From Pusillimonas sp. TS35 (GTDB lineage: Bacteria; Pseudomonadota; Gammaproteobacteria; Burkholderiales; Burkholderiaceae_B), in the NCBI RefSeq assembly GCF_009857885.1, contig NZ_WWER01000013.1, positions 1-38,817 of the forward strand: a stretch of 38,817 bases of DNA, written 5' to 3'. This document shows positions 5,730 to 36,324 of the stretch, piece by piece. The notes under the pieces were generated by a model that was given only the letters and a program-made list of their open reading frames with translations, did not search any database and had not been told where the DNA came from. Position 1 is the first letter of the stretch, and every line of letters starts with the position of its first letter. The translations under genes and the position numbers were made by a program.

Positions 5730-6404
5730 ATGTGCAATCGCTACGTAACATCCGACCAGGCGGCTGTTGAACGCTACTGGCATGTCGGCCGCCAGAACCC
5801 ACCGAGGCTCTGGGGACCACTGGTGCATCCCCGGGGTATGGGGCCGTTTATTCGTGCAGGCGGCCAGGGGCGGGAACTTGTCGTAGGCCAGTGGGCGCTG
5901 ATTCCCCCATTCGCCAAGGATGCCAAATTACCCTATTCCACCAACAACGCACGCGCCGAAGAACTGGCGCAAAAGCCCACCTTTCGGCAAGCCTGGGCGC
6001 GGGGGCAGCGCTGCATCATTCCGGCGGAATCCTTCGATGAACCCTGTTGGGAAAGCGGCAGCAATGTGTGGTGGCGGTTCCGGCGCGCCGATGGTGCGCC
6101 CTGGGGGCTGGCCGGTTTGTGGAATACCTGGGTCAGCCGGGAAACCGGCGAAGTGGTGGAAAGCTATACCATGCTCACACTGAACGCGGACGCTCACCCC
6201 CTGATGAACAGGATGCACAAGCCTGATCCTTCCAGGCCTGTCGACGCGCAAGATAAGCGCTCGGTGATTCCGATTGAGCTGGCCGATGTCGATCAATGGC
6301 TGAACGGCAGCCAGGACGACGCGCAGGCGCTGTTTACTCTGCCGCCCGCTGCGGCATTCGATGCCATCCCGCTGGAACCGCCGCGACAGTCCAGCCTGAT
6401 TTAA
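5730..6404 (+). CDS. SOS response-associated peptidase (SRAP/YedK-like), intact copy
   Basis: SRAP proteins form a covalent bond through Cys2 with abasic sites in single-stranded DNA and so protect replication intermediates. The start at 5730 is chosen because it gives MCNRY, placing the catalytic cysteine at position 2; an upstream in-frame ATG at 5649 would bury it. The 224-residue product has NNARAEE (72-78), the active-site glutamate in IIPAESF (E100) and HPLMNRMH with H156, the expected catalytic set. An adjacent ssb gene points convergently towards it, which fits a shared role with single-stranded DNA during conjugative transfer. The 3' part (from 6012) belongs to the 936-bp repeat whose other copy is at 35357. 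Confidence 0.9.
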   Translation: MCNRYVTSDQAAVERYWHVGRQNPPRLWGPLVHPRGMGPFIRAGGQGRELVVGQWALIPPFAKDAKLPYSTNNARAEELAQKPTFRQAWARGQRCIIPAESFDEPCWESGSNVWWRFRRADGAPWGLAGLWNTWVSRETGEVVESYTMLTLNADAHPLMNRMHKPDPSRPVDAQDKRSVIPIELADVDQWLNGSQDDAQALFTLPPAAAFDAIPLEPPRQSSLI

Positions 6405-6947
6405 TGATCTGTGTCGGTCAGCGCGAGGATTCCGGCGACACACGCAACAAAGCCCGGCAAAGCCGGGCCAGTCGCGGTTTTCGCCAGGCCGGTGTTACCC
6501 GGCCTGTGGTGGGCTGTCGATTAGAATGGAATATCTGATGGTTCGATTTCGTCAGGCGTTGCAGTGGGTGCCTTCGCCTTGCTGCTGCGGCCTTTCGGGC
6601 GGGCTGCCGGCCCAGGCTGGGCGGTGTGAGCCTGGGCCGTTTCCCTGCCGCCCAACATCTGCATTTGGTCTGCAATGATTTCCATGGTGTAGCGGTCCGT
6701 GCCCGTGTCTGCGTCATGCCACTTGCGGGTTTTCAGGCGGCCTTCCACGAATACCGTGCGGCCTTTGCGCAGATATTCACCGGCAATTTCAGCCAGTCGG
6801 CCATAGAAAACGACGCGGTGCCATTCGGTTTCTTCGCGGCGCTCGCCTGTGGCCTTGTCCTTCCATTGGTGAGTCGTAGCAATCGACGCTGAGCAGACGG
6901 CTGCACCTTCTGCGGTGTAGCGGACTTCGGGGTCTTTGCCAAGGTTG
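6012..6947 (+). repeat. 936-bp direct repeat, left copy
   Basis: This segment recurs at 35357-36292 at a constant offset of 29,345 bases with no indels. I count 8 mismatches: one near 6068, one at 6402, and the others between about 6430 and 6690. It starts at TGCATCATT inside SRAP and ends at CCAAGGTTG inside ssb. The left copy has the complete SRAP 5' end but loses the ssb 5' end, which is replaced by a helicase fragment. The right copy is the mirror case. Confidence 0.95.
6452..6506. terminator. Two hairpins between convergent SRAP and ssb genes (left copy)
   Basis: GCCCGGC (6452-6458) pairs with GCCGGGC (6462-6468) around an AAA loop. CAGGCCGG (6485-6492) pairs with CCGGCCTG (6499-6506). 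They lie between the SRAP stop (6404) and the ssb-chimera stop (6521) and probably end transcription from both sides. Confidence 0.6.
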
Positions 6948-7231
6948 GCGGCGCGAACCCCCATCCGTTCTGCCGCTGCGATCTGGTTTCGCATCAGCGC
7001 CAGCAGCGGCGAGATCAATAACGCCGGGCCGGCTCCAGCTTCCCGCAGCAACTTGGTCGCGATGAAGTAGACAAAGCTCTTACCCCACCCGGTTTTCTGC
7101 ACGACCAGCAAGCGCCCTTTGCCTTCGACGATGTGACGAATGGCATCTTCTTGGCCGTCGCGGAAAGTGGCATCGGCGCGTCCGGAGCCGATGCGGAGAA
7201 GTTCCAGCGCGCGTTTTGGGTCGTAGGCCAC
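6521..7231 (-). CDS. Chimeric frame: RecQ-like helicase N-terminus fused to SSB lacking its first strand
   Basis: Residues 1-95 match the start of a RecQ-like SF2 helicase: FRDGQEDAI (23-31), Walker A QKTGWGKS (45-52) and [11 protein letters not shown] (74-84). From N96 onward ([14 protein letters not shown]) it is SSB from SSB residue 12 to the C-terminal DIPF tip. The joint is in frame at about 6947/6948, exactly where the 936-bp repeat ends. The GTG start at 7231 lies 1 base from the WYL gene stop, which suggests co-transcription. The helicase lacks motif II onwards and SSB lacks its first beta strand, so both are probably inactive. The chimera could still carry the SSB protein-interaction tail. 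It is a recombination product, not a known family. Confidence 0.85.
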
Positions 7232-7232
7232 G

Positions 7233-8138
7233 TTATTGCTCTCCCTTGTTTTGGTCGGGCGAGCGGTACCCCGGCGCCAACACAGCGTTCTTGACGCCGT
7301 ACAGCGCCAGGTGATCTTTCAGCCAGAGCCTGAATTCATAACCGCGCAGACTGTGGTCCGGAGAGCAGTCCACACTCCACTGCCGCAAGATGTATCCGGC
7401 GGTGGCAGCACGCAGCTTCATCCGTAGTGACCCGCGAACCATACCGTAATCCATCTCCGTAATTTCAGGGCGGGGCTGGTCCGGGTGCGGCACCATCTCC
7501 AGCTCCACGATCCGGGTCCATTGGATGTCCTGATCACTGCGCTCATGGGGCTGCACATCTGCATCCCTCATAAGGAACGGGCGCTTGATCCGCGTGATGA
7601 CGAAATCCCGGAACTCTTGGCATTTCCGGTCGAAGGCGCGGACGTGCCAGCGCAGGCCGTTGTCGATCAGCGCGAACGGGACGATCTCCCGCTCGGTGCG
7701 GCCACTGGAAATGGAGTGGTACTCAATACCGAGCGGACACTCCTGGTGAATCGCACGGGTCACGCTCGCAAGCACATCCAGATCCGGATGCGTGAGCCGT
7801 GACGGGCTCTCGCTGGCTACCCACGCCTTGAGCCGCATCGGCTCACCGTCGCCAAAGCCCTGGGTCAGCCACGACAGCACCCGCTCCGGGGGGAAGTCGA
7901 ACACGGGCCGGAAATCCGGCCCCATGACGTAGGACTTGCCCTTGGGGTCGTAGTCGATGTTGCCCGAGGCCAACTCCTTGTACAGCGCCAGATCCCTGGA
8001 TGCGGCGGCGGACTGGATGCCAAACCGCGTGACCAAGTCCTGACGGCGTATCTCCCCGATGAAGCGCACGCGCAACTCCACGAACGCGAGCCGGTCGCGT
8101 TGTGGCTGGGTGACATTCGCAAGCTTTTCTAAATGCAT
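7233..8138 (-). CDS. WYL-domain transcriptional regulator (CapW/BrxR-like)
   Basis: I place the start at the internal ATG at 8138 ([17 protein letters not shown]), giving 301 residues like related regulators; the longer frame to 8192 adds 18 unlikely residues. An N-terminal winged helix (about 12-60, ending [20 protein letters not shown]) is followed by a WYL domain (about 125-195; [27 protein letters not shown]) and a C-terminal WCX-like region. WYL regulators of this layout often repress defence operons and may sense nucleotides or DNA ends. The gene directly precedes the RecQ-like helicase fragment, so it probably controlled a defence operon whose remainder was lost. A divergent small gene begins at 8445. 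Confidence 0.8.
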
Positions 8139-8158
8139 TGTGACGAAATGGGTCCAAG

Positions 8159-8188
8159 TATTACTACGTAGATATCGACGACAGTATA
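8159..8188. promoter_or_regulatory. Imperfect inverted repeat upstream of the WYL gene (possible operator)
   Basis: TATTACTACGTAGAT (8159-8173) and ATCGACGACAGTATA (8174-8188) match as inverted arms at 9 of 15 positions around a central GATATC. The site lies 21-50 bases upstream of the WYL start on the minus strand, where autorepressing WYL regulators commonly bind. The symmetry is weak. Confidence 0.25.
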
Positions 8189-8390
8189 TCAATCATATAA
8201 ACATACGCCCATCGTATTATTTTGATATGCACCTGGAGCCTAGTTTGATAACTACCGTTTTTAGTCCCGATGGCTTTGGCGTTGCCAGGCCGGGGTAAGG
8301 CTGGACTCAGCGGGGCGAGCGCACTACAGCTCGAAAAATAGCCTGACTCGGATCGCAGATTTTTTCACTCACATATCACCTTGATGAACG

Positions 8391-8410
8391 CAGGCAGCAA
8401 TTGCTGTCTG
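8391..8410. promoter_or_regulatory. 20-base inverted repeat before the zinc-ribbon gene
   Basis: CAGGCAGCAA (8391-8400) is followed directly by TTGCTGTCTG (8401-8410). The arms pair at 9 of 10 positions with the central 12 bases fully palindromic. It sits 34 bases upstream of the ATG at 8445 and may be an operator or mRNA hairpin. The rest of the 8139-8444 spacer is AT-rich near the WYL gene and shows a small GAGC/GCTC stem near 8320; I see no gene in it. Confidence 0.35.
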
Positions 8411-8444
8411 CTTCTGCCGTCTTCCTCTTCATCAAGGAGCTCCA

Positions 8445-8831
8445 ATGTCTGAATCCTTCGCTACCCCGCATCCGGGTGAGCAGCAGGCTCCGCATCCCTC
8501 TCGAGGCATCATCTTCTGCCCGCGCTGCGGCTCTCCCCAAACCCAGGCCAAGAATCGCGCCAAGAAGCTCGGTGGCGCCTTCGGTACGTGCTTCGGTATC
8601 GCCAATTCGTTCTCTGGCGCTGCCAAGGGTGCCGCTGCCTGTGCTGCCATCGGCCTGAGAGCAACTGCCCAAACTTCCTCTCTGAACAGCATCACCGCCG
8701 CCGTGCTTAGCGCACTGGCCGGTGGTGCGATAGGTTGCGCCACTGGTGCCACTCTGGGCCAAGTCATCGATGACACGGTGCTGAACAACTTCCTATGTTT
8801 CCACTGCGGCCATTCCTTCCCGACCCCATAA
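8445..8831 (+). CDS. Small protein with a split zinc ribbon around a glycine-rich hairpin
   Basis: The 128-residue product has CPRC at 25-28 and CFHC at 118-121, two CxxC knuckles of the kind that form a zinc ribbon. Between them lies a hydrophobic Gly/Ala-rich segment (about 42-112) with glycine-zipper character, for example GGAFGTCFG and ALAGGAIGCATGATLG, which could insert in a membrane as a hairpin. AAGGAG at about 8435 is a good ribosome binding site. The DUF932 gene follows after 21 bases in the same direction. I do not recognise a named family; the location suggests an ICE accessory protein. Confidence 0.65.
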   Translation: MSESFATPHPGEQQAPHPSRGIIFCPRCGSPQTQAKNRAKKLGGAFGTCFGIANSFSGAAKGAAACAAIGLRATAQTSSLNSITAAVLSALAGGAIGCATGATLGQVIDDTVLNNFLCFHCGHSFPTP

Positions 8832-8852
8832 CCATTCCTCTGGAGAACCCTC

Positions 8853-9815
8853 ATGGCTCACCTCGTTGAACAGATGGCCTATGTCGGCCAAACGCCCTGG
8901 CATGGCCTGGGTAATGAACTATCCGCCAACCAACCCCTTGAAGTCTGGCAAAAACAAGCCGGAATGGATTGGGACATTAAAGAAGCCCCTGTGCAATTCA
9001 CCGATGTGGTGGACGACACGCAAAGCCGCCTGATTACGTTCCCGCAAAGCAAGGTGCTGTACCGCTCCGACACCCACGCTCCGTTGTCTGTTGTCAGTCA
9101 ACGCTATCAGGTCGTGCAGCCTCGCGAGCTTCTGGAGTTCTATCGAGATCTCACGGAAGTCTCAGGCTTTCAGCTGGAAACCGCAGGTGTCTTGAAGGGT
9201 GGCAAGAAAGTCTGGGCATTGGCACGTACAGGGCATACGGCCACGATTCAGGCGAACGATGTCACCAACGCCTATGTGCTGCTGGCTACGGCTTGTGATG
9301 GCACGCTGGCGACCACTGCTCAGTTCACAGCGGTTCGAGTCGTCTATAATAACACGCTGGCTGTAGCCATCGATGACAGCCGTGGGGCCGTGAAAGTGCC
9401 GCACAGCACGACCTTCGATGCAGAGGCCGTCAAGCGTCAATTGGACATTTCCGTATCCAGTTGGGACACTTTCATGTACCGCATGAAAATGCTCAGCGAG
9501 CGCCCGGTCAAGCACTCGGAAGCGGAAGCGTTCTTTCGGCAGCTGTTCACCGAACCCCGCCAAGACGTTTCCACACAGCCCAATGAACGGGCCATGTCCA
9601 AAGCACTGGACATCTACAACGGTCGGGGCCGTGGTGCAGAACTGGGCTCATCGAAGGGAACCGCCCTTGGGCTACTCAATTCGATCACCGAGTTCGTGGA
9701 TCACGAACGGCGTGCCCGTAACACCACCGACTACCGCCTGGATTCAGCATGGTTCAGTCAGGGCGCCGCACTGAAGCAGAAGGCACTGGATCGCACCTTG
9801 GCGATGCTTGCATGA
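8853..9815 (+). CDS. DUF932 (TIGR03299-type) phage/plasmid-like protein
   Basis: The 320-residue protein starts MAHLVEQMAYVGQTPWHGLG and continues through LSVVSQRYQVVQPRELLEFYRDL and VYNNTL, features of the DUF932 family common on conjugative elements and phages. The molecular role is unknown; members often sit beside single-strand-annealing or recombination genes. GGAG at about 8840 precedes the ATG. A strong hairpin follows the stop at 9842, and the next gene, which might have been the functional partner, is cut short at about 9930. Confidence 0.8.
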   Translation: MAHLVEQMAYVGQTPWHGLGNELSANQPLEVWQKQAGMDWDIKEAPVQFTDVVDDTQSRLITFPQSKVLYRSDTHAPLSVVSQRYQVVQPRELLEFYRDLTEVSGFQLETAGVLKGGKKVWALARTGHTATIQANDVTNAYVLLATACDGTLATTAQFTAVRVVYNNTLAVAIDDSRGAVKVPHSTTFDAEAVKRQLDISVSSWDTFMYRMKMLSERPVKHSEAEAFFRQLFTEPRQDVSTQPNERAMSKALDIYNGRGRGAELGSSKGTALGLLNSITEFVDHERRARNTTDYRLDSAWFSQGAALKQKALDRTLAMLA

Positions 9816-9841
9816 AACACTCTCTTTCCACCACCACGGCA

Positions 9842-9874
9842 TAAGGCCCGGCGACTTAATTGCGCCGGGCCTTA
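9842..9874 (+). terminator. 12-bp hairpin between DUF932 and the truncated next gene
   Basis: TAAGGCCCGGCG (9842-9853) pairs perfectly with CGCCGGGCCTTA (9863-9874) across a 9-base loop, followed by TGTCTTTTATGG. The stem is strong and the T-rich tail short, so it could be a terminator or attenuator before the next start at 9896. Confidence 0.6.
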
Positions 9875-9895
9875 TGTCTTTTATGGAGTTCGATT

Positions 9896-9988
9896 ATGAA
9901 TACCGCTGTCCAAGTTCAACCACACGCACTTGTCCGGGGACTTGTTCAGATCGATAAACAAACTGGAGTGGGTCCACGTTCCTTATAA
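9896..9988 (+). pseudogene. Start of an ICE gene cut off by the catabolic block
   Basis: After GGAG (9885-9888) an ATG at 9896 opens MNTAVQVQPHALVR, then runs out of frame through Bug-receptor DNA to a stop at 9988, 30 codons in all. Only about the first 10-12 codons seem native to the ICE. The ribosome binding site and position after DUF932 show that a real gene was here. Its identity cannot be told from the stub. It marks the left edge of the catabolic DNA at about 9921-9930. Confidence 0.5.
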
Positions 9989-10406
9989 AGGCACTGCCCC
10001 CGCGCTGTCCGACCTGATGGGGAACATGGTGTCCGTCATGTTCGTGCCGCCGCCCGCCACCTTGGGACCGGCGGCAGCTGGGCGAATCAAGCTCATCGCG
10101 GTGTCCGGCGACTCGCGCATTCCCGCACTGCCCGACGTTCCCACGGTGAGCGAGAGCGGCATATCGAACTACAGCGTCAACAATTGGTATGGTCTGTTCG
10201 CGCCCGCGGGAACCCCCGAGGCCGTGCTTAATACCTTGTCCAGCGCGGTGGCCGACGCCTTGAAAGACAAGAAAGTGCTGGACACCCTTGCAAAGCAAGG
10301 AGGCGAGGCCGGAAAACTGGATCGGAAGCAGTTCTCGGCCTATGTTGCGGACGAGGTGGCAAAGTGGGGCAAGGTCGCCAAACAGGCTGGCGTGAAACCA
10401 CAGTAA
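9930..10406 (+). pseudogene. Bug-type tripartite tricarboxylate transporter receptor, C-terminal half only
   Basis: The frame encodes HLSGDLFRSINKLEWVHVPYKG, then PTVSESGISNY and APAGTPEAVLNTL, the second half of a Bug (TctC-like) periplasmic binding protein. Normal members have about 320 residues; about 158 remain, and the signal peptide and first lobe are missing. The break coincides with the left edge of the catabolic DNA. TTG at 9930 could serve as a start, but without a signal peptide the product would not be exported. It is the truncated end of the block that once extended further left in its donor. Confidence 0.85.
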
Positions 10407-10427
10407 GGCTGCCGCCTGCCGCTTCGA

Positions 10428-11255
10428 TCAACCATCCCGGTCCGCCGCCGGGATTTTTCTATTCGGCTGGCCTCGGCTTTTCAGCCCCTTCTGTTCTCGT
10501 TGCTGGCTCCCCGAGGCCAGGTTGATCGTGTAGTAGTAGCGATCAGCCCTGAAATAGGATTTGAAGAGAACGAAGGAAGCACCGCTGCCCAGGCGGCATA
10601 AACGGCTAATCAGCAATACCGGCGCCCCCACCGGGACCGCAAGCAGCTGCGCCATACCGGTATCCGCAACGAGCGCATCGATGAACTGGCGTTCGTCGAT
10701 GCATTTCAGGCCGAGCCGGGTTTCAAGGATTTCGCTGATCGGGGCGTTTTCAAGATTTTCCCGCACGACCCGGGCTCCGGTCTCGACCGACATGAACGCA
10801 TGGTGCACCACCAGCGGCTGGCCTTCAAAATACCTTAGCCGGGCGATCTTGTAGACTTCGGCGGGATCGACCTGGGCCAGCCCCGGCTCCAGGTCGGCGG
10901 GCACGCGCACGGTTTCCAGAACTCGCGCGTAGGTGTCCAGATGCAGGCTGGAAAAATCCTCGACCATGCCGGTGAGCCGCTTGCTGGTGGGCGCATCCGG
11001 ACGGCGTTTGAGGAAAGTCCCCCTGGCCCGGTGACGCTCGATGATTCCCTCGTGCTCCAAGCCCCGCAAGGCTTCCCGCACGGTCTCGCGGGACACCCCG
11101 AACTCTTCGCAAAGCACTTGCTCGGTGGGCAGTCGATCGCCCGGCTGGTATTCCAGGCTCATGCGGCGTTCGAGAATATGCCGCACCTGCAGATACTTGG
11201 GAAAAGGATTGAAGAACGGCGCTCCGCCGGGCTGTTGCTTGTTTTTTTCGGTCAT
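10428..11255 (-). CDS. GntR-family transcriptional regulator (HutC/UTRA type)
   Basis: The start at 11255 (MTEKNKQQPGG) is preferred over a frame extending to 11372 because the winged helix begins at NPFPKYLQVRHILERRM and CAGGA sits just upstream. The 275-residue protein has a GntR winged helix (about 18-85; LPTEQVLCEEFGVSRETVREALRGLEHEGIIERHRARGTF in two helices plus wing) and a UTRA ligand-binding domain (about 100-250) of the HutC class. Such regulators usually repress catabolic or transport genes until a small acid or sugar ligand binds. It converges with the Bug fragment and lies 130 bases beyond the dienelactone hydrolase stop. Confidence 0.85.
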   Translation of the reverse strand: MTEKNKQQPGGAPFFNPFPKYLQVRHILERRMSLEYQPGDRLPTEQVLCEEFGVSRETVREALRGLEHEGIIERHRARGTFLKRRPDAPTSKRLTGMVEDFSSLHLDTYARVLETVRVPADLEPGLAQVDPAEVYKIARLRYFEGQPLVVHHAFMSVETGARVVRENLENAPISEILETRLGLKCIDERQFIDALVADTGMAQLLAVPVGAPVLLISRLCRLGSGASFVLFKSYFRADRYYYTINLASGSQQREQKGLKSRGQPNRKIPAADRDG

Positions 11256-11387
11256 TTCCTGAAACGACGCATATCGACATGCGTGATGCCCATTGGTGAA
11301 CTCTTCGCATGGAGCGGCCCGGGCGGCTTGGCGCTCTGGTTTGGAACGCCGGGAGACGCCCGATGCGGTCACACAAAGTTTACCAAA

Positions 11388-12275
11388 CTACCGCAGATAC
11401 CGATTGAACCAATCCAGGGTTCGGCTCCAGGCGAGATCCGCCGCCGCCTTGTCATAGCGTGGCGTCGAGTCGTTATGGAAACCGTGGTTCGTGCCGGGGT
11501 AGATATAGGCCTCGTAGGTCTTGCCGTGCTGCTTCAGCGCCGCCTCGTACGCAGGCCAGGTCTGATTCACGTTGGGATCGTTTTCAGCAAATTGCAGCAG
11601 CAAGGGCGCCTTGATGCGAGGCACGTCTTCAGGCTTGGCCTGGCGCCCATAAAAGGGAACCGCCGCGCCGAGCTCGGGATAGGCGACAGCGGCAGCGTTG
11701 GCGACGCCGCCCCCATAGCAGAACCCGGTGATGCCGACTTTTCCGCTTGCACCCTCGTACGCGGCCATGAACTCGACGGCGGCGAAAAAGTCGTTCATCA
11801 ATTTCACGGGATCGACCTTCTGCTGCAGCTCGCGGCCCTTGTCGTCATTACCGGGATAGCCGCCCTGCGACGTGAGCCCGTCTGGCGCCAGCGCAACGAA
11901 CCCGGCTTTGGCAAGGCGCCTGGCCACATCTTCTATGTATGGGTTCAGGCCACTGTTCTCGTGCACCACGACGATCGCGGGCGGCTTGCCCTCGGACTTG
12001 GCGGGCTTGACCAGATAGGCCCGCACCTGGCCATTGCCTTGGGCGGAGGGATAGGTGATGTATTCCGAGACGATATCGGGATCGGTGAAAGAAACCTGTT
12101 GTGCAAGCGCGTAGTTGGGGCGTAGCGAAGCCAGCAGGGCCGAAGCCGTCAGGCCGCCCAAGGCGAACTTGCCGGCCCGGCTGAGAAATTGGCGCTTGGT
12201 GATTTTTCCGTGCACGTAATGGTCGTAAAGTTCGAGCAACTCGGGTGCGAAATCTTTGGCTGTCAGTCTCGTCAT
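11388..12275 (-). CDS. Dienelactone hydrolase family protein with N-terminal export-like segment
   Basis: The 295-residue protein has an alpha/beta-hydrolase fold with nucleophile Cys in GFCYGGG, acidic residue in AENDPNV and histidine in TNHGFHND, the Cys-Asp-His triad of dienelactone hydrolases. Residues about 27-58 (KRQFLSRAGKFALGGLTASA and then LLASLRPNYALAQ) look like a signal or anchor ending in an ALA-type cleavage site, preceded by a longer N-terminal segment than usual. It is therefore probably periplasmic. AAGGAGG gives a strong ribosome binding site. The substrate is not known; ring-cleavage lactones are the classic one, but many members act on other esters. Confidence 0.85.
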   Translation of the reverse strand: MTRLTAKDFAPELLELYDHYVHGKITKRQFLSRAGKFALGGLTASALLASLRPNYALAQQVSFTDPDIVSEYITYPSAQGNGQVRAYLVKPAKSEGKPPAIVVVHENSGLNPYIEDVARRLAKAGFVALAPDGLTSQGGYPGNDDKGRELQQKVDPVKLMNDFFAAVEFMAAYEGASGKVGITGFCYGGGVANAAAVAYPELGAAVPFYGRQAKPEDVPRIKAPLLLQFAENDPNVNQTWPAYEAALKQHGKTYEAYIYPGTNHGFHNDSTPRYDKAAADLAWSRTLDWFNRYLR

Positions 12276-12363
12276 GGCGCCTCCTTTTTATTGGCAGGCG
12301 CGAATGAACCCGCGTGTTTCGATTATGAAGCCATCGCCATGGATGATCCAGGATTTTTTCAAT

Positions 12364-12393
12364 GGGGTCAGACCCCATGCGGGGTCTGACCCC
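12364..12393. repeat. GGGGTCAGACCCC palindrome, copy 1
   Basis: GGGGTCAGACCCC, an ATGC loop and GGGGTCTGACCCC form a perfect 13-bp stem. It lies between the divergent dienelactone hydrolase and Hsp20 genes. Related copies occur at 12930, 12980, 13021, 32349 and 34794, all inside the catabolic block and none in the ICE parts. Confidence 0.9.
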
Positions 12394-12500
12394 TCCCGCT
12401 CTTGAAAATAAAACGCCAGCCCACATATACATGCCAAGCAAGTCGGCGCCATCGATCGGCCCAACGCCAATCTTGTAATGATGATTTCAGGAGAATCAAC

Positions 12501-12920
12501 ATGAGCAACATCACCCGCCGCGACCCCTTCGGCGATCTCTTCCGTGGTTTCTTCGTCAGGCCCGTCGACTTCGGTTTTGATGCGGCGCTCGAATCGCCGG
12601 AAATGAGAGTGGATGTCAAAGAGAATGCCGAAGGCTACCAAGTCCAGGCCGAGCTGCCCGGTGTCAAGAAGGAAGACATCCATGTGCAGATCGACGGTCC
12701 CCGCGTTTCCATCGGCGCCGAGCGCAAGCAGGAAAGGCAGGAAAAGGATGGCGAACGCGTCCTGCGCACCGAGCGCTACTTCGGCAGAGTGTCCCGCAGC
12801 TTCCAGCTCAGCCAGGACGTGGACGAGTCCACCGCCACCGCCCGGTTCAACGATGGTGTTCTGGAGCTGACGCTTCCGAAAAAAGCACAGGCTCAGGCCA
12901 AGCGTCTGACCATCGCTTGA
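12501..12920 (+). CDS. Small heat shock protein Hsp20 (alpha-crystallin family)
   Basis: The start at 12501 follows AGGAG (12489-12493) and gives 139 residues. A short N-terminal arm (MSNITRRDPFGDLFRGFF) leads to an alpha-crystallin domain (about 33-130) with the conserved VQAELPGVKKEDI and the family signature NDGVLELTLPKK. It would hold unfolding proteins in an ATP-independent way as cytoplasmic oligomers. The C-terminal IxI anchor is not obvious. Palindromic repeats flank it on both sides, and it has no clear metabolic link to its neighbours. Confidence 0.93.
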   Translation: MSNITRRDPFGDLFRGFFVRPVDFGFDAALESPEMRVDVKENAEGYQVQAELPGVKKEDIHVQIDGPRVSIGAERKQERQEKDGERVLRTERYFGRVSRSFQLSQDVDESTATARFNDGVLELTLPKKAQAQAKRLTIA

Positions 12921-12929
12921 GGCGGTGAA

Positions 12930-13047: not shown

Positions 13048-13059
13048 TTAAGTAATTCC

Positions 13060-28934: not shown

Positions 28935-30155
28935 ATGGCAAAAACGCTGTCCAACATACGGGTTCTGGATTTATCACGCATTCTCGCGGGTCCCTGGGCG
29001 ACTCAAAACCTCGCCGACCTGGGCGCGGAGGTCATCAAGGTCGAACGACCCGGCAGCGGAGACGACACCCGGCACATGGGCCCGCCATTCCTGCATGCCG
29101 CCGAAACGGACGAGCCGGGCGATGCCGCTTATTTCATGTGTTGCAACCGCGGCAAGCAGTCCGTCACCATCGACTTCAGCAAGCCAGAAGGCCAGGCGCT
29201 CGTGCGCGCCCTTGTTGCCGACGCCGACGTACTGGTCGAGAACTACAAGGTCGGGGCGCTGAAGAAATATGGCCTGGACTACAACTCCTTGCGCGAGCTC
29301 AATCCCGGGCTGGTGTACTGCTCGGTCACCGGCTTCGGACAGACAGGGCCGTACAAAGACCGGGCGGGCTATGACTTCCTGATCCAGGGAATGGCCGGCC
29401 TCATGAGCGTCACGGGCGAACGGGACGACCTGCCCGGCGGCGGCCCTCAGCGCGTGGGCGTGGCCGTGGCCGACATCCTGACGGGCATGTACGCGACCGT
29501 GGCGATTCTGGCGGCACTGCGCCACCGCGATCAAGGCGGCGGCGGCCAGCATATCGACATCAGCCTGCTCGACTGCATGGTCGGCTCGCTGGTCAACCAG
29601 GGAATGAATTACCTCACCAGCGGCGTTGCTCCGGTCCGCATGGGCACCGGCCATCCCAACATCGCCCCCTATCAGGTGTACCCGGCGCTGGACGGCCACA
29701 TCATCCTGACGGTCGGCAACGATACGCAGTTTCAACGCTTCTGCAATGCGGTTGGCGATCCCGATTTCGCTAGCGACCCCAGATTCAAGACGATCCGCGA
29801 CCGGGTCGCCAACCGCGCTGCGATGAACGAGCGGCTGGAGGCCATCACGCGCACGCGCAGCGTCGAAGACTGGGTGGCGCTTCTGGAAGAGGCGCAGGTG
29901 CCTTGCGGGCCGATCAATACGATAGACCGCGTATTCAACGATCCTCATGTCGTGGAACGGGGCATGCGCCTGGATCTTGCCCATCCCCTGTATGGGCAAG
30001 TCCCACTCATCAACAGCCCGATACGCTTTTCCGAAACACCGCTGAAGCTGACCGAACCGCCGCCCGTGCTCGGGCAGCATACCCACCAGGTCCTGGCGCG
30101 CCTCGGATTGAGCGACGATGAACTTGAAAAACTTCAACAGGCCGGCATCGTCTGA
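28935..30155 (+). CDS. CaiB/BaiF family (class III) CoA-transferase, first copy
   Basis: The 406-residue protein begins with the family pattern IRVLDLSRILAGPWATQNLA and DLGAEVIKVERPGSGDDTR, followed by FMCCNRGKQSVTID and AGYDFLIQGMAGLMS, in which D147 corresponds to the catalytic aspartate that forms the acyl anhydride. QVPCGPINTIDRVFNDPHV is the typical C-terminal segment. It would move CoA from a donor to the pathway acid without ATP. It opens the rightward operon with MaoC-like and crotonase genes, so it probably activates the substrate or recycles CoA. No strong ribosome binding site is visible. Confidence 0.92.
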   Translation: MAKTLSNIRVLDLSRILAGPWATQNLADLGAEVIKVERPGSGDDTRHMGPPFLHAAETDEPGDAAYFMCCNRGKQSVTIDFSKPEGQALVRALVADADVLVENYKVGALKKYGLDYNSLRELNPGLVYCSVTGFGQTGPYKDRAGYDFLIQGMAGLMSVTGERDDLPGGGPQRVGVAVADILTGMYATVAILAALRHRDQGGGGQHIDISLLDCMVGSLVNQGMNYLTSGVAPVRMGTGHPNIAPYQVYPALDGHIILTVGNDTQFQRFCNAVGDPDFASDPRFKTIRDRVANRAAMNERLEAITRTRSVEDWVALLEEAQVPCGPINTIDRVFNDPHVVERGMRLDLAHPLYGQVPLINSPIRFSETPLKLTEPPPVLGQHTHQVLARLGLSDDELEKLQQAGIV

Positions 30156-30197
30156 GCACATCACACATAGCACACATCAACAGAAAGAGACATCTAC

Positions 30198-30695
30198 ATG
30201 AAACACCTGCCCATCTCAAAAGACAAGAACGGCCTGGACATCTACGGCATCGGCCTTTACTGGGACGACGTCGAAGTCGGCTATCGTTTCCGCACACTGG
30301 GACGCACCATAACAGAGGCCGACATCACCATGTTCGTGGGTGCAACCGGGATGGTCGAAGAAATGTTCACGAACGTGGAATACATTTCCGAGGTGTCGGT
30401 GATCGGCTCTCGCCCCGCCCCCGGTTCGCTCGTGTTTTGCATCGCGGAAGGCCTGCTGATGCAAAGCACCATGCAACGCACGGGCATGGCTTTCCTCGAG
30501 GCCGACCTAAAGATTCATCGCCCCACCACGGCAGGCGACACCATCCACGTGGAATGCGAGGTCGTGGAAGCGCGCGCAACCAGCAAAGCCGGCCGGGGCC
30601 TCATGCGCACTGCCAACAAGGTCGTCAACCAGCGGGGCGAAATCGTAGCAAGCTACAACCCGCTGCGCATGGTCAAGAGCCGTCCGCAACAGTAA
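30198..30695 (+). CDS. MaoC-like hot-dog protein lacking the usual catalytic residues
   Basis: The 165-residue protein has hot-dog features (DDVEVGYRFRTLGRTITEADI, SRPAPGSLVFCIAEGL, LKIHRPTTAGDTIHVECEV). Where active MaoC hydratases have Asp and His (DxNPxH), this protein reads GATGMVEEMFTN, with neither residue. It may be a non-catalytic partner of the other MaoC protein (27902), or it may use another mechanism. AAAGAGA precedes the ATG, 42 bases after the CoA-transferase stop. The crotonase gene follows in the same operon. Confidence 0.8.
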   Translation: MKHLPISKDKNGLDIYGIGLYWDDVEVGYRFRTLGRTITEADITMFVGATGMVEEMFTNVEYISEVSVIGSRPAPGSLVFCIAEGLLMQSTMQRTGMAFLEADLKIHRPTTAGDTIHVECEVVEARATSKAGRGLMRTANKVVNQRGEIVASYNPLRMVKSRPQQ

Positions 30696-30713
30696 AGCCT
30701 CGCCGGAAGAAAG

Positions 30714-31520
30714 ATGTCAATCGGAGCAAAATCCATGGTCCAGACCGATGCGGTACTTTTCGATGCCGACGACGGCATTGCGACCATTACCATCAACCGT
30801 CCCAAACAGCGCAATGCGCTGTCCATAGAAGTCGGCAACCGCCTGCTCGATCTCTGGGAACAGGTCGATTCAGATCCCAGCATACGGGTGGCGATCCTGA
30901 CCTCTTCGGATTGCGGCACGTTTTGCGCCGGCATGGACCTCAAGGAAGCGTCGAGAGTCAAGGCCGAATCCAATGTAGATATCCTGGACCTGTTCCGCGA
31001 TCCTTTCCATCAGCGCATGCGCGCCGTCGAAAAACCGATCATTGCAGCCATGACCGGGCATTTCACGGCGGGCGGCATGGTGCTGGCGGCCAACTGCGAC
31101 TTGCGCATCGGCACCGCGGGCACGCTGGGCGGCATATCCGAAGCAAAGGTGGGCAGGGGCGCGCCCTGGGCCGTGCCCATGCTGTGGATGCTCCCCCAAC
31201 CGTTCTTGATGGAGCTCATGATGTCCGCCGAGCTGCAGCCCATCGAAAGATTCCATGAGTTTGGCTTCATCAACCATGTTGAAGCCACGCCCGACGCCGT
31301 ACGCGAGCGCGCCCGAAAGCTCGCCAAAAGCATACGCGACAATGCCCCGCTGACCGTATGGGCTGCAAAGCAAAGCATAGGCGCCGCCATGGACCTGGGC
31401 TGCAAAGAAGGCTTCGAGGCGGCCAAACGCATACACGAACGCGTCTATCACAGCCAGGATGCGATCGAAGGCCCGCGCGCCTTTGCGGAAAAGCGCGCCC
31501 CCCGATGGAGCGGCACATGA
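30714..31520 (+). CDS. Enoyl-CoA hydratase/isomerase family protein (second crotonase)
   Basis: The 268-residue crotonase starts at 30714 after GGAAGAAAG; an ATG eight codons downstream is possible. It has ITINRPKQRNALSIEVGNRL, the oxyanion segment GTFCAGMDLKEASR and TGHFTAGGMVLAANCDLR. The first hydratase Glu position is Met or Val, while a glutamate remains in GGISEAKVGRGAPW. It is probably a hydratase or isomerase on a branched acyl-CoA. Its stop overlaps the next crotonase start (ATGA at 31517-31520). Confidence 0.88.
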   Translation: MSIGAKSMVQTDAVLFDADDGIATITINRPKQRNALSIEVGNRLLDLWEQVDSDPSIRVAILTSSDCGTFCAGMDLKEASRVKAESNVDILDLFRDPFHQRMRAVEKPIIAAMTGHFTAGGMVLAANCDLRIGTAGTLGGISEAKVGRGAPWAVPMLWMLPQPFLMELMMSAELQPIERFHEFGFINHVEATPDAVRERARKLAKSIRDNAPLTVWAAKQSIGAAMDLGCKEGFEAAKRIHERVYHSQDAIEGPRAFAEKRAPRWSGT

Positions 31521-32323
31521 CGAAAGATGCGGGCGGCCTGGTGCAAACCGAGAGGCGCGGGGACACGATCATCCTTTGGCTGAACAGGCCGGAAGAACTG
31601 AACCGGCTGTCGACCGAAGGCCAATTCCTCGAGCTTGCCGACAAGATCCGGCAAGCCAATCTTGATCCTACCGCGCGCGCCTTGATCATCACCGGGAAAG
31701 GGAAGGCATTTTGCGCGGGCGGCGATTTGCACAAGATGGCGAACCGGGAAGGGTTCTCGGCGGGAACACCCCAAGACATCCGCATGCGCTACAAGGAAAC
31801 CATCCATCAGGTGCCTCTTGCGCTGAACGACGTCGATATCCCCACCATCGCGGCAGTCAACGGGCCTGCCTACGGCGCCGGATGCGATCTCGCCTGCATG
31901 TGCGACATCCGCATTGCGTCCCCCGATGCGACCTTCTGTGTCAGCTTTGCGGAACTCGGCATCATATCCGGAGACGGCGGCTCATGGATTCTTCCACGTC
32001 TGGTCGGACGATCCACCGCAATGGCCATGACCTTCACCGCCAGTCCCATCGACGCCGTCGAAGCGTTGCGATGCGGGCTGGTGACACAGCTTGCAGAACC
32101 CGGACAACTGCTGGAAAGCGCGCTGGCGCTCGCGGACAGAATCGCCCGCCACCCAAGGAACACCATACGCATGGCCAAGCGCCTGCTGCGCAGCGCGGAA
32201 CACACCAGCCTTCCCGATCACCTGGACATGGCTGCCGCGCTGCAGGCCATCGCCCACACCTCGGAAGAACACATTGCAGCCGTCAACCGCTTGATCCAAC
32301 GACTTCAGAACAAATCGACCTGA
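31517..32323 (+). CDS. Enoyl-CoA hydratase/isomerase family protein (third crotonase)
   Basis: The start at 31517 (MTKDAGGLVQTERRG) overlaps the upstream stop by ATGA; a longer frame from 31358 only reads through the neighbouring gene. The 268-residue product has GKAFCAGGDLHKMANREG, NGPAYGAGCDLACMCDIR and SFAELGIISGDGGSWILPRLVG. It keeps acidic residues at both catalytic positions (Asp and Glu), so it is the best hydratase candidate of the three crotonases. It ends the rightward operon before a palindromic repeat and the convergent CoA-transferase. Confidence 0.9.
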   Translation: MTKDAGGLVQTERRGDTIILWLNRPEELNRLSTEGQFLELADKIRQANLDPTARALIITGKGKAFCAGGDLHKMANREGFSAGTPQDIRMRYKETIHQVPLALNDVDIPTIAAVNGPAYGAGCDLACMCDIRIASPDATFCVSFAELGIISGDGGSWILPRLVGRSTAMAMTFTASPIDAVEALRCGLVTQLAEPGQLLESALALADRIARHPRNTIRMAKRLLRSAEHTSLPDHLDMAAALQAIAHTSEEHIAAVNRLIQRLQNKST

Positions 32324-32348
32324 TGCGCCGGCCGGGGCCGGATTGCCG

Positions 32349-32378
32349 GGGGTCAGACCCCGTACGGGGTCTGACCCC
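32349..32378. repeat. GGGGTCAGACCCC palindrome, copy 5
   Basis: A perfect copy with GTAC loop sits between the convergent crotonase (stop 32323) and CoA-transferase (stop 32384). In this place it would act as a bidirectional terminator. Confidence 0.9.
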
Positions 32379-32383
32379 TACAC

Positions 32384-33526
32384 TCAACCCTCATGCTTGG
32401 GCAATTCGCTCGCCCATGACCGGATTCCGCCCGGAGTCCGGGAAAACCGCGTGGGGATGCCTGCGGCGCGCAAGCGGCCTTGCGTTGGATGATCGTATTC
32501 GAATAATGTGCCCGTAGCCTGTATGTGGGGATCGTCCAGCAGCGCATCGAACGCCTGCACCACGCTATGCGGGATATCGGCCTCGGCCAGCAAGCCGAGC
32601 CAATCGGCCGTTGATTTGCCCTCGAGGATGCCGGCCACCACGGCATAAAGCTCGTCGATATTCGCGTTCCGTGCGGCGGCATCCACGTACTTGGACTCTT
32701 GCGCCAAGTCCCGCCGCCCCGCGACGATGAAGAAACGCATCCACTGCTCGGTGGTATATGGCATCAGGGCGATATGCCCGTCCTTCGTCGCATAAGGCTT
32801 CCGGTGCGGGGACATGACCCGAGGGTATCCGGACGAGCCGTCGCCCGATACGAACGTCTTGCCCGCCAGATGCTCGACCGCAAGAAAGGAAACCATGGTC
32901 TCGAACATCGGAACCTCGATGGCCTGGCCAAGCCCGGAACGCTCTCTTTCGTACAAAGCCATCGGAATCGCATATGCCGCCGTCAGGCCCACGACTTTAT
33001 CGACCAGGATCGTATTGACGTACCGGGGGCCTTGATCGTCGTTCGCTCCCTGGAAATGTGCCATGCCGCTCTTGGCTTGTATGATGTCGTCGAACGCGGG
33101 CAAGCCTGCATAGGGTCCCGATTCGGAATAGCCATATGCGCCGCAATAGATGAGCCGAGGGTTGCCGGGTCGCAAGGACTCGTAATCCAGCCCGTGCCGA
33201 CGCAACGATGCCGGCCGGACGTTGGACACAAATACGTCGGCGTCAGCGATAAGGGACTTAAGGCGAACCAGATCTTCGTCGCGCCTGATATCCAGAACCA
33301 GGAAGCTCTTGTTTCGATTCAGGTTGAGAAAGCAGGCGCTCATTCCCGCATTGCGCACCGGTTCCGTATAACGCAGGACATCACCCCCCGGCGACTCTAT
33401 CTTGATGACCTCTGCGCCCATGTCGCCGAGAATCTGGGTGGCGTAGGGTCCCATTCCCACGGTGGTCATGTCCACCACCCGAATTCCCGTCAAGGGTCCG
33501 CATGCCGAAGCACCCTGCGTTTCCAT
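32384..33526 (-). CDS. CaiB/BaiF family CoA-transferase, second copy
   Basis: The start at 33526 (METQGASACGPLTGIRVVDM) follows CAGG; the frame extends to 33565 but that would overlap the receptor gene. The 380-residue protein has GPYATQILGDMGAEVIKIESPGGD, NLNRNKSFLVLDIR, NVRPASLRRHGLDYESL and AFDDIIQAKSG with D146 at the catalytic position. It is clearly diverged from the first CaiB copy, so the two probably act on different acids. It lies 25 bases downstream of a Bug receptor gene in one short operon, which links uptake of an acid to its activation. Confidence 0.9.
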   Translation of the reverse strand: METQGASACGPLTGIRVVDMTTVGMGPYATQILGDMGAEVIKIESPGGDVLRYTEPVRNAGMSACFLNLNRNKSFLVLDIRRDEDLVRLKSLIADADVFVSNVRPASLRRHGLDYESLRPGNPRLIYCGAYGYSESGPYAGLPAFDDIIQAKSGMAHFQGANDDQGPRYVNTILVDKVVGLTAAYAIPMALYERERSGLGQAIEVPMFETMVSFLAVEHLAGKTFVSGDGSSGYPRVMSPHRKPYATKDGHIALMPYTTEQWMRFFIVAGRRDLAQESKYVDAAARNANIDELYAVVAGILEGKSTADWLGLLAEADIPHSVVQAFDALLDDPHIQATGTLFEYDHPTQGRLRAAGIPTRFSRTPGGIRSWASELPKHEG

Positions 33527-33551
33527 CGCTCTACCTGCTAAAGACTTGGCG

Positions 33552-34553
33552 CTACAGTTGCGCACCGGAGCTTTTTATGACCGGCCCCCACTTTTCCCGT
33601 TCCTTGGCGAGAAAGTCGGCGAACTCCGCTGGGCCTCGTCCTACGGGGATCAGCTTGGCATCGTGAAACTTCTGCTGGATTTCGGGCGAAGTGACAATTT
33701 CAACAATGGCTTTGTTTAGCTTGTCGATAATCGCGGGTGGCGTGCCCGCGGGGGCCATCACGCCGCCATAGATGTCGACTTCGTATCCCTTGACGCCTGC
33801 TTCCGATACGGTGGGAAGATCCGGAAATGCGGGCGAACGATATTGGTTGGTCGTTGCCAGCGCCTTGATTCGTCCAGCGGCAATATGAGAGGCGACTGCA
33901 GTGGCCGAGCTGATGCTCATGTCTATCCGCCCGCCCGCCAGGTCTGTCGCGGCAGGAGCCTCCCCTTTGTATGGAATATGCAGGATGTCCACTCCCGCCA
34001 TTTGCTTGAAGAGCTCCATGGCCAAATGCTGAGGCCCGCCGCTGCCGGAGGAGCCGAAGCTCATTTTGCCCGGATTCGCCTTCGCCATTTGCACCAACTC
34101 GGCGACCGAGTTGACTCCCAGGTCGGAACGCACGACCAGCAGATGGTCATAAGTCACGACATGATTGACCGTCGCCAGATCGCGCTCGGGCTTGTAGGAA
34201 AGATTGGGATCCATCAAGGGGCGCAGTGTCACGTTGCCGGCGCCTCCGAACAGCAGGGTATACCCATCCGCGGGCTGGCTGGCCACATATGCGGCGCCAA
34301 TGGCGCCCGCCACGCCGGGCTTGTTCTCGACCACGACCTGCTGGCCCAGCCTGGCCGACATTTCGTTAGCAAGCACGCGTGCCGTGACGTCGGTAGCGCC
34401 GCCCGTGGCATAGGGCACGATGAGGCGTATGGGCTTGTCTGGATAGGCAGCCGACGCGGCGGCAACCTGGGGCAAGCAGGATATGCCAAGGGCCGCAGCT
34501 GAAACTGCCGTTATCAACCTTTGCGCTTTACGAAGCAACCTGCCGATCGTCAT
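33552..34553 (-). CDS. Bug-type periplasmic receptor, second complete copy
   Basis: The 333-residue protein has a Sec-type signal peptide (about 1-35, ending VAAASAAYPDKPI) and the Bug/TctC pattern YPDKPIRLIVPYATGGATDVTAR, GYTLLFGGAGNVTLRP and HIPYKGEAPAATDLAGGRIDM. It would bind a carboxylate in the periplasm. No transporter membrane subunits are near. ACAGGAGAAG precedes the ATG and a TTGACT promoter lies upstream. It is co-transcribed with the CoA-transferase. Confidence 0.92.
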   Translation of the reverse strand: MTIGRLLRKAQRLITAVSAAALGISCLPQVAAASAAYPDKPIRLIVPYATGGATDVTARVLANEMSARLGQQVVVENKPGVAGAIGAAYVASQPADGYTLLFGGAGNVTLRPLMDPNLSYKPERDLATVNHVVTYDHLLVVRSDLGVNSVAELVQMAKANPGKMSFGSSGSGGPQHLAMELFKQMAGVDILHIPYKGEAPAATDLAGGRIDMSISSATAVASHIAAGRIKALATTNQYRSPAFPDLPTVSEAGVKGYEVDIYGGVMAPAGTPPAIIDKLNKAIVEIVTSPEIQQKFHDAKLIPVGRGPAEFADFLAKEREKWGPVIKSSGAQL

Positions 34554-34587
34554 GTCTTCTCCTGTATGAATTATGTTGATACAGCGA

Positions 34588-34627
34588 AGAATAGACAGAG
34601 TAGTTCATTAAGTCAATAGTTATTTCA
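34588..34627 (-). promoter_or_regulatory. Promoter of the receptor/CoA-transferase operon with TGAAAT box
   Basis: On the minus strand TGAAAT (34622-34627), 5 bases, TTGACT (34611-34616), 17 bases and TATTCT (34588-34593) are present, 35 bases before the receptor ATG. The rest of 34628-34790 is AT-rich with no visible gene. Confidence 0.6.
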
Positions 34628-34793
34628 ATTTAATTTATTGAGTTTTAATAGGATTAACAGCTATTTACTTGCGTAATATTAATAACACACCAACTATTTC
34701 TGTAATTTTATTGTTAATTTCGTTTTGATCTGATGTCGAAATGCCAATTTCCTGGAGGCCCGCCCCTGCAGGGTCGGACCCCGGACGAAAGGA

Positions 34794-34822
34794 GGGTCAG
34801 ACCCCGTACGGGGTCTGACCCC
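34794..34822. repeat. GGGGTCAGACCCC palindrome, copy 6, with a degenerate half copy
   Basis: GGGTCAGACCCC, GTAC and GGGGTCTGACCCC form a 12-bp stem. A half copy, GGGTCGGACCCC, lies at about 34771-34782 just before it. The GntP fragment begins about 45 bases later. Confidence 0.85.
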
Positions 34823-34866
34823 ACCGCCTGATAAACTGACGGCTTTCTATTCGTCAAAGGAATTCC

Positions 34867-35356
34867 CATACGATTTCCCGCTGGATCGTCGAAAAGCTCG
34901 GCGACCGGCACGCTATTGTCACCGTCGTGCTGGCTTGCGGCATCTTGACCTACGGAGGCGTGTCGCTCTTCGTCGTGGCATTTGCCATCTATCCGATCGC
35001 CAAGGATCTCTTCCGCAGCGCGGACATTCCGAAACGGCTGATCCCCGCAACGATCGCCCTCGGCTCGTTCACCTTCACCATGACCGCGCTGCCCGGCACA
35101 CCTGCCATACAGAATGCGATTCCGATTCCCTACTATGGCACCAATGTCTTCGCGGCCCCAGGACTGGGACTGATTGCGGGCGCCATCATGTTTCTTGGGG
35201 GGCTGTGGTGGCTGCGCGGCAGAGCTGCGCACGCCCATGCCGTCGGCGAAGGCTACGGCACGCACGAAGACGACAGCGACGCCTCCGCGGCCGACGCGGG
35301 CCAGGAAGGAGCCTTGTCCGTCATGCCGCTGCCATTGGCGCTGCTGCCGCTCGTAT
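34867..35356 (+). pseudogene. GntP-family permease, internal fragment cut at both ends
   Basis: The frame from about 34867 encodes HTISRWIVEKLGDRHAIVTV, CGILTYGGVSLFVVAFAIYP, TMTALPGTPAIQNAIPIPYYG and LIAGAIMFLGGLWWL, which match the middle of GntP-type gluconate/organic-acid symporters. At least three hydrophobic segments are visible. Full members have about 450 residues; about 160 remain. The left edge lies just after a palindromic repeat. The right edge at 35356/35357 is an exact join to the SRAP repeat, out of frame. It is non-functional and marks the right end of the catabolic DNA. Confidence 0.85.
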
Positions 35357-35752
35357 TGCATCATTCCGGCGGAATCCTTCGATGAACCCTGTTGGGAAAG
35401 CGGCAGCAATGTATGGTGGCGGTTCCGGCGCGCCGATGGTGCGCCCTGGGGGCTGGCCGGTTTGTGGAATACCTGGGTCAGCCGGGAAACCGGCGAAGTG
35501 GTGGAAAGCTATACCATGCTCACACTGAACGCGGACGCTCACCCCCTGATGAACAGGATGCACAAGCCTGATCCTTCCAGGCCTGTCGACGCGCAAGATA
35601 AGCGCTCGGTGATTCCGATTGAGCTGGCCGATGTCGATCAATGGCTGAACGGCAGCCAGGACGACGCGCAGGCGCTGTTTACTCTGCCGCCCGCTGCGGC
35701 ATTCGATGCCATCCCGCTGGAACCGCCGCGACAGTCCAGCCTGATTAAATGA
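35357..35752 (+). pseudogene. SRAP/YedK-like protein, 3' part only
   Basis: The reading frame matches residues from IIPAESF to the end of the intact SRAP at 5730. The catalytic Cys2 and the NNARAEE segment are missing. One base change (T to A at 35747) turns the TAA stop into a lysine codon and the protein ends one residue later at TGA. It is preceded by out-of-frame GntP sequence, so no functional product is expected. Confidence 0.92.
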
Positions 35753-35795
35753 TCTGTGTCGGTCAGCGCGAGGATTGCGGCGACACACGCAACAA

Positions 35796-35851
35796 GGCCC
35801 GGCAAAGCCGGGCCAGTCGCGGTTTTCGCCAGGCCGGTGTTACCCGGCCTG
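35796..35851. terminator. Two hairpins between SRAP fragment and ssb (right copy)
   Basis: These are the same hairpins as in the left repeat. The A-to-G difference at 35796 extends the first stem to GGCCCGGC/GCCGGGCC. The second is CAGGCCGG/CCGGCCTG (35830-35851). They lie 14 bases after the ssb stop and probably terminate ssb transcription. Confidence 0.6.
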
Positions 35852-35865
35852 TGGTGGGCTGTCGA

Positions 35866-36324
35866 TTAGAATGGAATATCTGATGTATCGATTTCGTCAG
35901 GCGTTGCAGTGGGTGCCTTCGCCTTGCTGCTGCGGCCTTTCGGGCGGGCTGCCGGCCCAGGCTGGGCGGTGTCAGCCTGGGCCGTTTCCCTGCCGCCCAA
36001 CATCTGCATTTGGTCTGCAATGATTTCCGTGGTGTAGCGGTCCGTGCCCGTGTCTGCGTCATGCCACTTGCGGGTTTTCAGGCGGCCTTCCACGAATACC
36101 GTGCGGCCTTTGCGCAGATATTCACCGGCAATTTCAGCCAGTCGGCCATAGAAAACGACGCGGTGCCATTCGGTTTCTTCGCGGCGCTCGCCTGTGGCCT
36201 TGTCCTTCCATTGGTGAGTCGTAGCAATCGACGCTGAGCAGACGGCTGCACCTTCTGCGGTGTAGCGGACTTCGGGGTCTTTGCCAAGGTTGCCGATCAG
36301 AGTGGCGCGGTTCAACGATGCCAT
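35866..36324 (-). CDS. ssb: Single-stranded DNA-binding protein, intact
   Basis: The 152-residue protein has a complete OB fold ([53 protein letters not shown]) followed by a flexible tail and the acidic C-terminal tip DTSDIPF that recruits replication and repair partners. It coats single-stranded DNA as a tetramer; ICE copies probably help after conjugative transfer. AAGGAGAAG precedes the ATG. Residues 12-152 are also present in the left chimera with few changes (there the tail reads EPSDIPF). The DUF3560 gene lies 66 bases upstream in the same direction, so they may share an operon. Confidence 0.95.

Follow-up and report, generated by a model that had tools for sequence, protein, structure and literature searches.

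A catabolic gene segment from another genus between two copies of SRAP-ssb sequence in a putative integrative and conjugative element of Pusillimonas sp. TS35

Introduction

Unconventional circularizable structures (UCS), so named by Palmieri et al. 2013 according to PMC9241890 and PMC7843796, are described as structures without recombinase genes that leave as circles via long direct repeats (PMC7843796), and for one UCS circle, integration into a second plasmid via homologous sequences of 849 and 2,470 bp is reported (PMC9241890). In this work, we describe a segment of Pusillimonas sp. TS35 that resembles these structures: a block of catabolic genes that lies between two long direct repeats (936 bp, 99.1% identity) made of the genes SRAP and ssb of a putative integrative and conjugative element (ICE), and for which no recombinase gene was found among the insert proteins scanned. 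The whole stretch of DNA analysed, hereafter the window, is one entire contig (NZ_WWER01000013.1, or C4) of 38,817 bp in a draft of 25 contigs and 4.10 Mb. The locus differs from the described UCS in several respects. The repeat is a fragment of ICE housekeeping genes, whereas the recombining sequences given in PMC9241890 contain TnAs1 or IS26; the cargo is 25 kb from another genus; and excision is a prediction. We expect that the locus works like a UCS whose repeat (ICE core genes) and cargo (the DNA of another genus) are unusual.

Two other described systems are close to this locus. For the translocatable units and pseudo-compound transposons of the insertion sequence (IS) IS26, a circle with one repeat is described to form from, and amplify at, a repeat-flanked segment (PMC11102541). 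A one-repeat circle could likewise arise from the segment studied here, but there is no IS at either end of the insert and the repeat is SRAP'-ssb' (the prime denotes a truncated gene). Microhomology-mediated break-induced replication (MMBIR), a model for human copy-number change, is described as joining unrelated pieces at 2-5 bp, the place where synthesis returns deciding between duplication and deletion (PMC2621351). Unrelated pieces joined with a tiny overlap, together with a duplication, are also found here, and we infer from this structure that MMBIR might have acted. F-prime and R-prime plasmids combine a mobile element with a contiguous chromosomal segment cut at arbitrary points. This locus also carries such a segment on a mobile element, but it has no evident attachment-site boundary on either side and its cargo is flanked by a repeat of ICE genes. 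Insertion sequences often obscure how a pathway first moves from a chromosome to a conjugative element; in this locus, which has no IS at its boundaries, a near source of the cargo can be read together with the uninterrupted site and all the joins. We recognised no publication as describing the element or strain CAII-53, the near source of the cargo, and make no wider claim of absence.

Results

Self-comparison of the window revealed a repeat, R, present as two 936-bp copies in direct orientation, R(L) and R(R), whose starts are 29,345 bp apart and which differ by eight mismatches, at 6068, 6402, 6432, 6451, 6541, 6542, 6628 and 6684. Judged from its length and identity, the pair is far beyond chance. 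Beyond both ends of R, ungapped identity drops at once to 3-8 of 20 bases per step, and within R the stretches of full identity reach up to 333 bp (6069-6401). The left copy has SRAP whole, together with an ssb that lacks its first 11 codons and is joined, in frame, with ~95 codons of a gene for a RecQ-like helicase; the right copy has a SRAP without its N-terminal part, joined to a fragment of a GntP-type permease, and ssb whole. Each copy is broken on its inner side and runs into intact genes on its outer side, which is the geometry expected of a single crossover. No inverted-repeat pair of at least 40 bp was found in the window. The in-frame RecQ-ssb join might give a 236-aa fusion protein of a helicase N-terminus and SSB, with a chance of about 1 in 3 that such a join is in frame.

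The site was invaded, because six genomes of the family hold the same flanks (on the left from 5299) with SRAP-ssb-DUF3560 uninterrupted: genome G006, Pusillimonas minor (G083), Paracandidimonas soli (G014), Yanghanlia caeni (G041), Parapusillimonas granuli LMG 24012 (G061) and Alcaligenaceae CAII-56 (G072). Of 268 genomes of the family, 8 had matches reaching at least E 1e-120 (that of TS35, these six and G169), and in a class-wide search with SRAP-ssb as query TS35 alone matched among 369 genomes. When the flanks were joined at R in silico, R plus 300 bp aligned with no gapped columns to G006, P. minor and P. soli, and with one, three and one gapped columns to Y. caeni, P. granuli and CAII-56, respectively. 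These results agree with a first-pass annotation of the window, made from its letters, which had described the direct repeats with their offset and eight mismatches as well as the whole and hybrid genes in each copy, had suggested looking for an uninterrupted SRAP-ssb-DUF3560 order in complete ICE genomes, and had supposed that a crossover would restore both genes. A second, diverged SRAP-ssb-DUF3560 locus is present in Y. caeni, with 77-78% DNA identity to the window and flanks that are contiguous there too, and two related elements can therefore share a cell. In G169 (C9:44655-45594), a gap of about 70 bp without SRAP separates left-flank from ssb sequence, each with an identity of about 86-87%; this locus is perhaps an element that has lost SRAP.

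The insert is made of two pieces, a mobile-element-like segment A of about 3 kb (RecQ'-WYL-x-DUF932) and a segment B of 25.4 kb. B shows an identity of about 98.7% to a single continuous stretch of Alcaligenaceae CAII-53 (G027:C13:126291-151723, contig JACCEN010000003.1), the alignment falling into three pieces of 98.7-98.9% identity. As the CAII-53 contig is 323,750 bp long, B is probably chromosomal there. The catabolic cluster of B encodes a GntR regulator, two PcaR/IclR-type regulators and a YghX hydrolase; biotin carboxylase, carboxyltransferase, AtuA, SDR and two acyl-CoA dehydrogenases; enoyl-CoA hydratases, MmgE/PrpD, MaoC and two CoA-transferases; and two TctC receptors. From AtuA and the carboxylase genes, branched-chain or terpenoid-like acids may be guessed as its substrates. 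The open reading frame (ORF) at 34927-35385, which overlaps the GntP fragment, had no Pfam match at 1e-5. None of the insert proteins scanned belonged to a transposase, integrase or recombinase family, some small ORFs being outside the scan.

In P. granuli, which has the same genus label as CAII-53, the CAII-53 region is collinear at 83-86% identity on either side of both cuts, although P. granuli lacks the stretches in which the cut genes lie. We rejected the view of B as a mobile island ending at the cut points, since P. granuli is collinear past both cuts; Pollutimonas subterranea (G088) lends no support to this rejection, because the part it has in common with the CAII-53 region ends inside both cuts. 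The same-genus genomes G001-G004 gave no match to 28800-35356 at E 1e-100. The genome of TS35 holds one full copy of B and otherwise, short repeat hits apart, only matches of at most 75% identity over at most 1.1 kb. A search of the plasmid collection with 10400-35300 (near mode) gave 14 records with gene-level matches only, none covering 80% of the query; with 5000-10500 (distant mode), 1,184 records matched, at gene level only among the best 20 matches listed and with none covering 80% of the query. As only gene-level matches were obtained, a plasmid source was not found. A short near-palindromic repeat (GGGTCAGACCCC type) occurs in B at 12363-12394, 12930-12959, 32349-32383 and 34794-34829, with related hits in the CAII-53 region, and the alignments between the window and CAII-53 break beside one copy, where about 60 window bases (12960-13020) remain unaligned.

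Regarding segment A, its RecQ/WYL part (6946-8124) shows 94% identity to G087:C6, and the WYL-x-DUF932 part is collinear, at 83% identity, with G204:C1 (7209-9924) and with CAII-53 (G027:C6; 7270-9919). In G045, homologues of x-DUF932 lie near homologues of the MmeI-helicase-T5orf172 set, which forms the left flank of the window; A is therefore likely mobile-element-like DNA of this general kind. An origin of A from the TS35 genome itself is not supported, as no second copy was found there at E 1e-60.

Three joins, J1 (ssb/RecQ), J2 (the start of a further gene joined to TctC, at ~9922) and J3 (GntP/SRAP), cut the genes of RecQ, the further gene, TctC and GntP, whose frames continue through the cut points in relatives: 692 aa for RecQ in G087, 331 aa for the J2 gene in G204, and 327 aa for TctC and 364 aa, from an internal start, for GntP in CAII-53. 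The bases shared at J2 cannot be fixed, because its left parent is known only at 83% identity; CAII-53 matches the two sides of J2 on different contigs. Among the matches listed for the J1 hybrid in 149 other genomes, none extends more than ~10 bp across the join, and the match in G087 starts at J1. The J3 hybrid was compared with 10 genomes, of which 7 had a match, and none of the 11 matches listed crosses J3.

The host element may be regarded as an ICE, since genes for a relaxase and a coupling protein lie in the vicinity of SRAP-ssb, although the linkage with contig C21 is by gene order only. In the G006 element, ~0.5 kb separates SRAP from a TrwC relaxase on its left, and a TrwB-type coupling protein is encoded ~28 kb away; in the TS35 genome, DNA matches to both are found on C21. 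At its left end, C21 corresponds to the beginning of MmeI in G045 and the DNA upstream of it, and C24 shares its first 55 bases with the right end of the window; gene order thus places the window inside the element, between C21 and C24. A tRNA scan of 12 loci found none.

Comparison of the eight mismatches with the six relatives gave private changes at 6402 in R(R) and at 6451, 6628 and 6684 in R(L). The R(R) base at 6068 is otherwise found only in CAII-56 and the diverged Y. caeni copy. At 6432 and 6541-6542, that is three of the eight mismatches in two events, both alleles segregate among the four nearest relatives, for which the chance is P ~0.016 to 0.12, depending on assumptions. There is no site where R(L) and R(R) share a base lacking in all six relatives. 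Both copies have one common mosaic haplotype, P. minor-like then P. soli-like then Y. caeni-like, which is not seen in any of the six. Eight sites separate the two copies, whereas P. minor, the nearest relative, differs at 18 sites from the left copy and at 14 from the right; no relative among the six has fewer than 14 differences. In the broken SRAP' of R(R), the change at 6068 is silent and that at 6402 removes the stop codon; in ssb, 6541, 6542, 6628 and 6684 are amino-acid differences. Four of the six coding differences are best read as changes (decay) on broken copies, those at 6628 and 6684 falling on the broken ssb'. At 6541-6542, P. soli, P. granuli and CAII-56 have the same bases as the broken copy, whose surroundings are P. 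minor/Y. caeni-like, and outgroups carry the bases of the left copy. Taken together, the two copies are close kin, decay explains much of their difference, and a related second ICE is hinted at.

Table 1. Features of the repeat pair, the insert and the adjoining host element in the window.
Feature	Position	Strand	Basis
Whole SRAP gene (host element)	5730..6404	+	Pfam PF02586, E 1.4e-30; full-length protein matches of 93-99% in six relatives
Left repeat copy, R(L)	6012..6947		Self-comparison of the window
Hybrid ORF, in frame: RecQ-like N-terminus (~95 aa) and ssb lacking its first 11 codons	6521..7231	-	SSB and DEAD domains in one ORF
J1 (ssb/RecQ)	6946..6947		2 bp (TG) common to both parents
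Segment A (RecQ', WYL, x, DUF932, start of next gene)	6948..9922		Comparison with relatives
WYL-domain protein	7233..8192	-	PF13280
Protein x, 128 aa	8445..8831	+	No Pfam match at E 0.001
DUF932 protein	8853..9815	+	PF06067, E 1.3e-68
First 9 codons of a gene with a 331-aa frame in G204, then J2 with TctC at ~9922	9896..9922	+	Comparison with G204
Segment B, 25.4 kb	9923..35358		Contiguous match in CAII-53
TctC receptor gene, C-terminal fragment (327-aa ORF in CAII-53)	9930..10406	+	PF03401, profile positions 129-273
Catabolic cluster	10428..34553		Domain scans of proteins
GntP-type permease fragment (364-aa ORF from internal start in CAII-53)	34864..35358	+	"GntP family permease" annotation under the match in H32
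J3 (GntP/SRAP)	35357..35358		2 bp (TG) common to both parents
Right repeat copy, R(R)	35357..36292		Self-comparison of the window
SRAP fragment without N-terminal part, original stop codon lost	35357..35752	+	Sequence comparison
Whole ssb gene (host element)	35866..36324	-	Full-length protein matches of 88-100% in six relatives
DUF3560 gene (host element)	36391..37200	-	PF12083; adjoins ssb in the six relatives

Discussion

We consider the integration of an R-bearing circular molecule into the ICE by a single crossover to be the best reading of this locus, and give it an even chance. Illegitimate joining would first have assembled three DNAs: R, from an ICE; A, a further fragment of mobile-element-like DNA; and B, 25.4 kb of probably chromosomal DNA donated by a Parapusillimonas-like bacterium. 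The circle would hold one R, from SRAP' to ssb', between GntP' and RecQ', and would be either a 29,345-bp molecule or a larger replicon with R, shortened later by a deletion that is visible as J2. One homologous crossover in R, with an ICE whose SRAP-ssb-DUF3560 locus was intact, would then yield two copies of R around 28.4 kb, leaving SRAP complete on the left side and ssb complete on the right side. If the crossover point lay between 6402 and 6451, the changes that are best read as derived, at 6068 and 6402 (SRAP' of R(R)) and at 6451, 6628 and 6684 (R(L)), would sit on the segments donated by the circle. Since the cargo lies between two 936-bp copies of the element's own genes, ordinary homologous recombination could both insert and remove it, and no insert-encoded enzyme would be required. 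While both copies stay, such recombination should excise a 29,345-bp circle and restore the element, or amplify the module in tandem; with repeats of this length, loss and amplification of the pathway are directly testable.

A one-step capture without any circle explains the locus nearly as well, and we hold it, its two forms taken together, to be somewhat less likely than the circle. In the first, an MMBIR-type template switch at microhomologies would have led from ssb to A, to B and back to the element 936 bp upstream; in the second, a staggered break 936 bp wide would have been filled in around the captured DNA. R would then be a by-product duplication, and the mismatches would reflect later decay plus some exchange with other ICEs. 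This scenario suits the 2 bp that the parents have in common at J1 and at J3, and in the MMBIR model as presented in PMC2621351 a return in front of or behind the original collapse sets deletion against duplication. Several points weigh against the circle. The circle needs three illegitimate joins and a crossover, whereas the capture needs fewer steps, the joins alone. The common recombinant haplotype of the two copies and their closeness to each other suggest a fresh duplication equally well, and decay after a one-step duplication would likewise put changes on the broken copies, as four of the six coding differences appear to be. The direction of change at 6541-6542 is ambiguous because of the outgroup bases, so the broken copy is not clearly the changed one. 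Moreover, a search of the TS35 genome for a further near-identical R yielded just a partial ssb match of 78%, on C18; neither of two exact junction patterns matched viral_contigs; and no circle or R-bearing replicon was found. What speaks for the circle over the capture are 6432 and 6541-6542, which match alleles segregating in relatives, so that the capture needs an extra exchange. The capture also requires a 25-kb template of another genus in the same cell, a demand that holds for the circle too.

The first-pass annotation had proposed a catabolic circle that entered by a single crossover, without IS or integrase, and whose repeat copy came from a related ICE. The repeat geometry, the uninterrupted site and the scanned insert proteins, among which no transposase, integrase or recombinase appeared, support this proposal; the circle itself has never been seen, and a one-step capture predicts the same structure. 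The GntP-SRAP and RecQ-ssb joins that it had proposed to seek on a separate replicon were absent among the matches listed in relatives, and no separate replicon with them was found. A catabolic block is indeed present, as a raw fragment that begins and ends within genes, but it shares the insert with ~3 kb of mobile-element-like DNA. A related ICE as the source of the mismatches is less well supported than had been claimed: only two events have both alleles in relatives, the two copies share a haplotype, and four coding differences look like decay.

An assembly error is improbable in our view. The assembler might have linked through R either an uninterrupted element and a free 29.3-kb circle (an isomer of the true structure) or pieces with artefactual joins (a chimera). 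The genome is a draft of 25 contigs, the ends of this contig look like insertion sequences, and the phase of the two copies rests on reads because exact stretches inside R reach 333 bp. However, the overlaps at J1 and J3 are only 2 bp, and assemblers need overlaps much longer than this; the contig also agrees with the gene order of the host element. A free-circle isomer, if real, would strengthen the circle model. Recombination between two related ICEs, or deletions in a tandem array of ICEs, with A and R from one second ICE and B from its flanking chromosome, is very improbable: A does resemble mobile-element DNA, with x-DUF932 homologues near the same MmeI-helicase-T5orf172 genes in G045, but ssb next to RecQ-WYL was seen in no element of the relatives searched, and B is cut inside genes at both ends with no evident attachment site.

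By either route, circle or template switch, the locus would show that an ICE can acquire 25 kb of another genus's DNA with ends cut inside genes. A more general proposal, to which we give only a small chance, is that the conserved ICE-gene fragment serves as a homology address, through which chromosome-derived circles with such a fragment might integrate into any of the family's ICEs, multiply there and leave again. If true, this would provide an integrase-free route for whole pathways between ICEs and, by conjugation, between genera.

Finally, some features were noted at the contig ends and in the related element. At the left end of the window (1-77, minus strand), the sequence resembles the start of a transposase gene, which we take to be IS3-type; it may interrupt an MmeI-like gene; in G045, the upstream part of this gene corresponds to the end of C21. 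The right end (38741-38817) reads like the start of the Mutator-family transposase of G006 (L026:13219-14496), and contig C9 matches the same G006 region. The G006 element (L036, L026) has duplicated ORFs between its coupling protein and relaxase genes, presumably resistance-type cargo.

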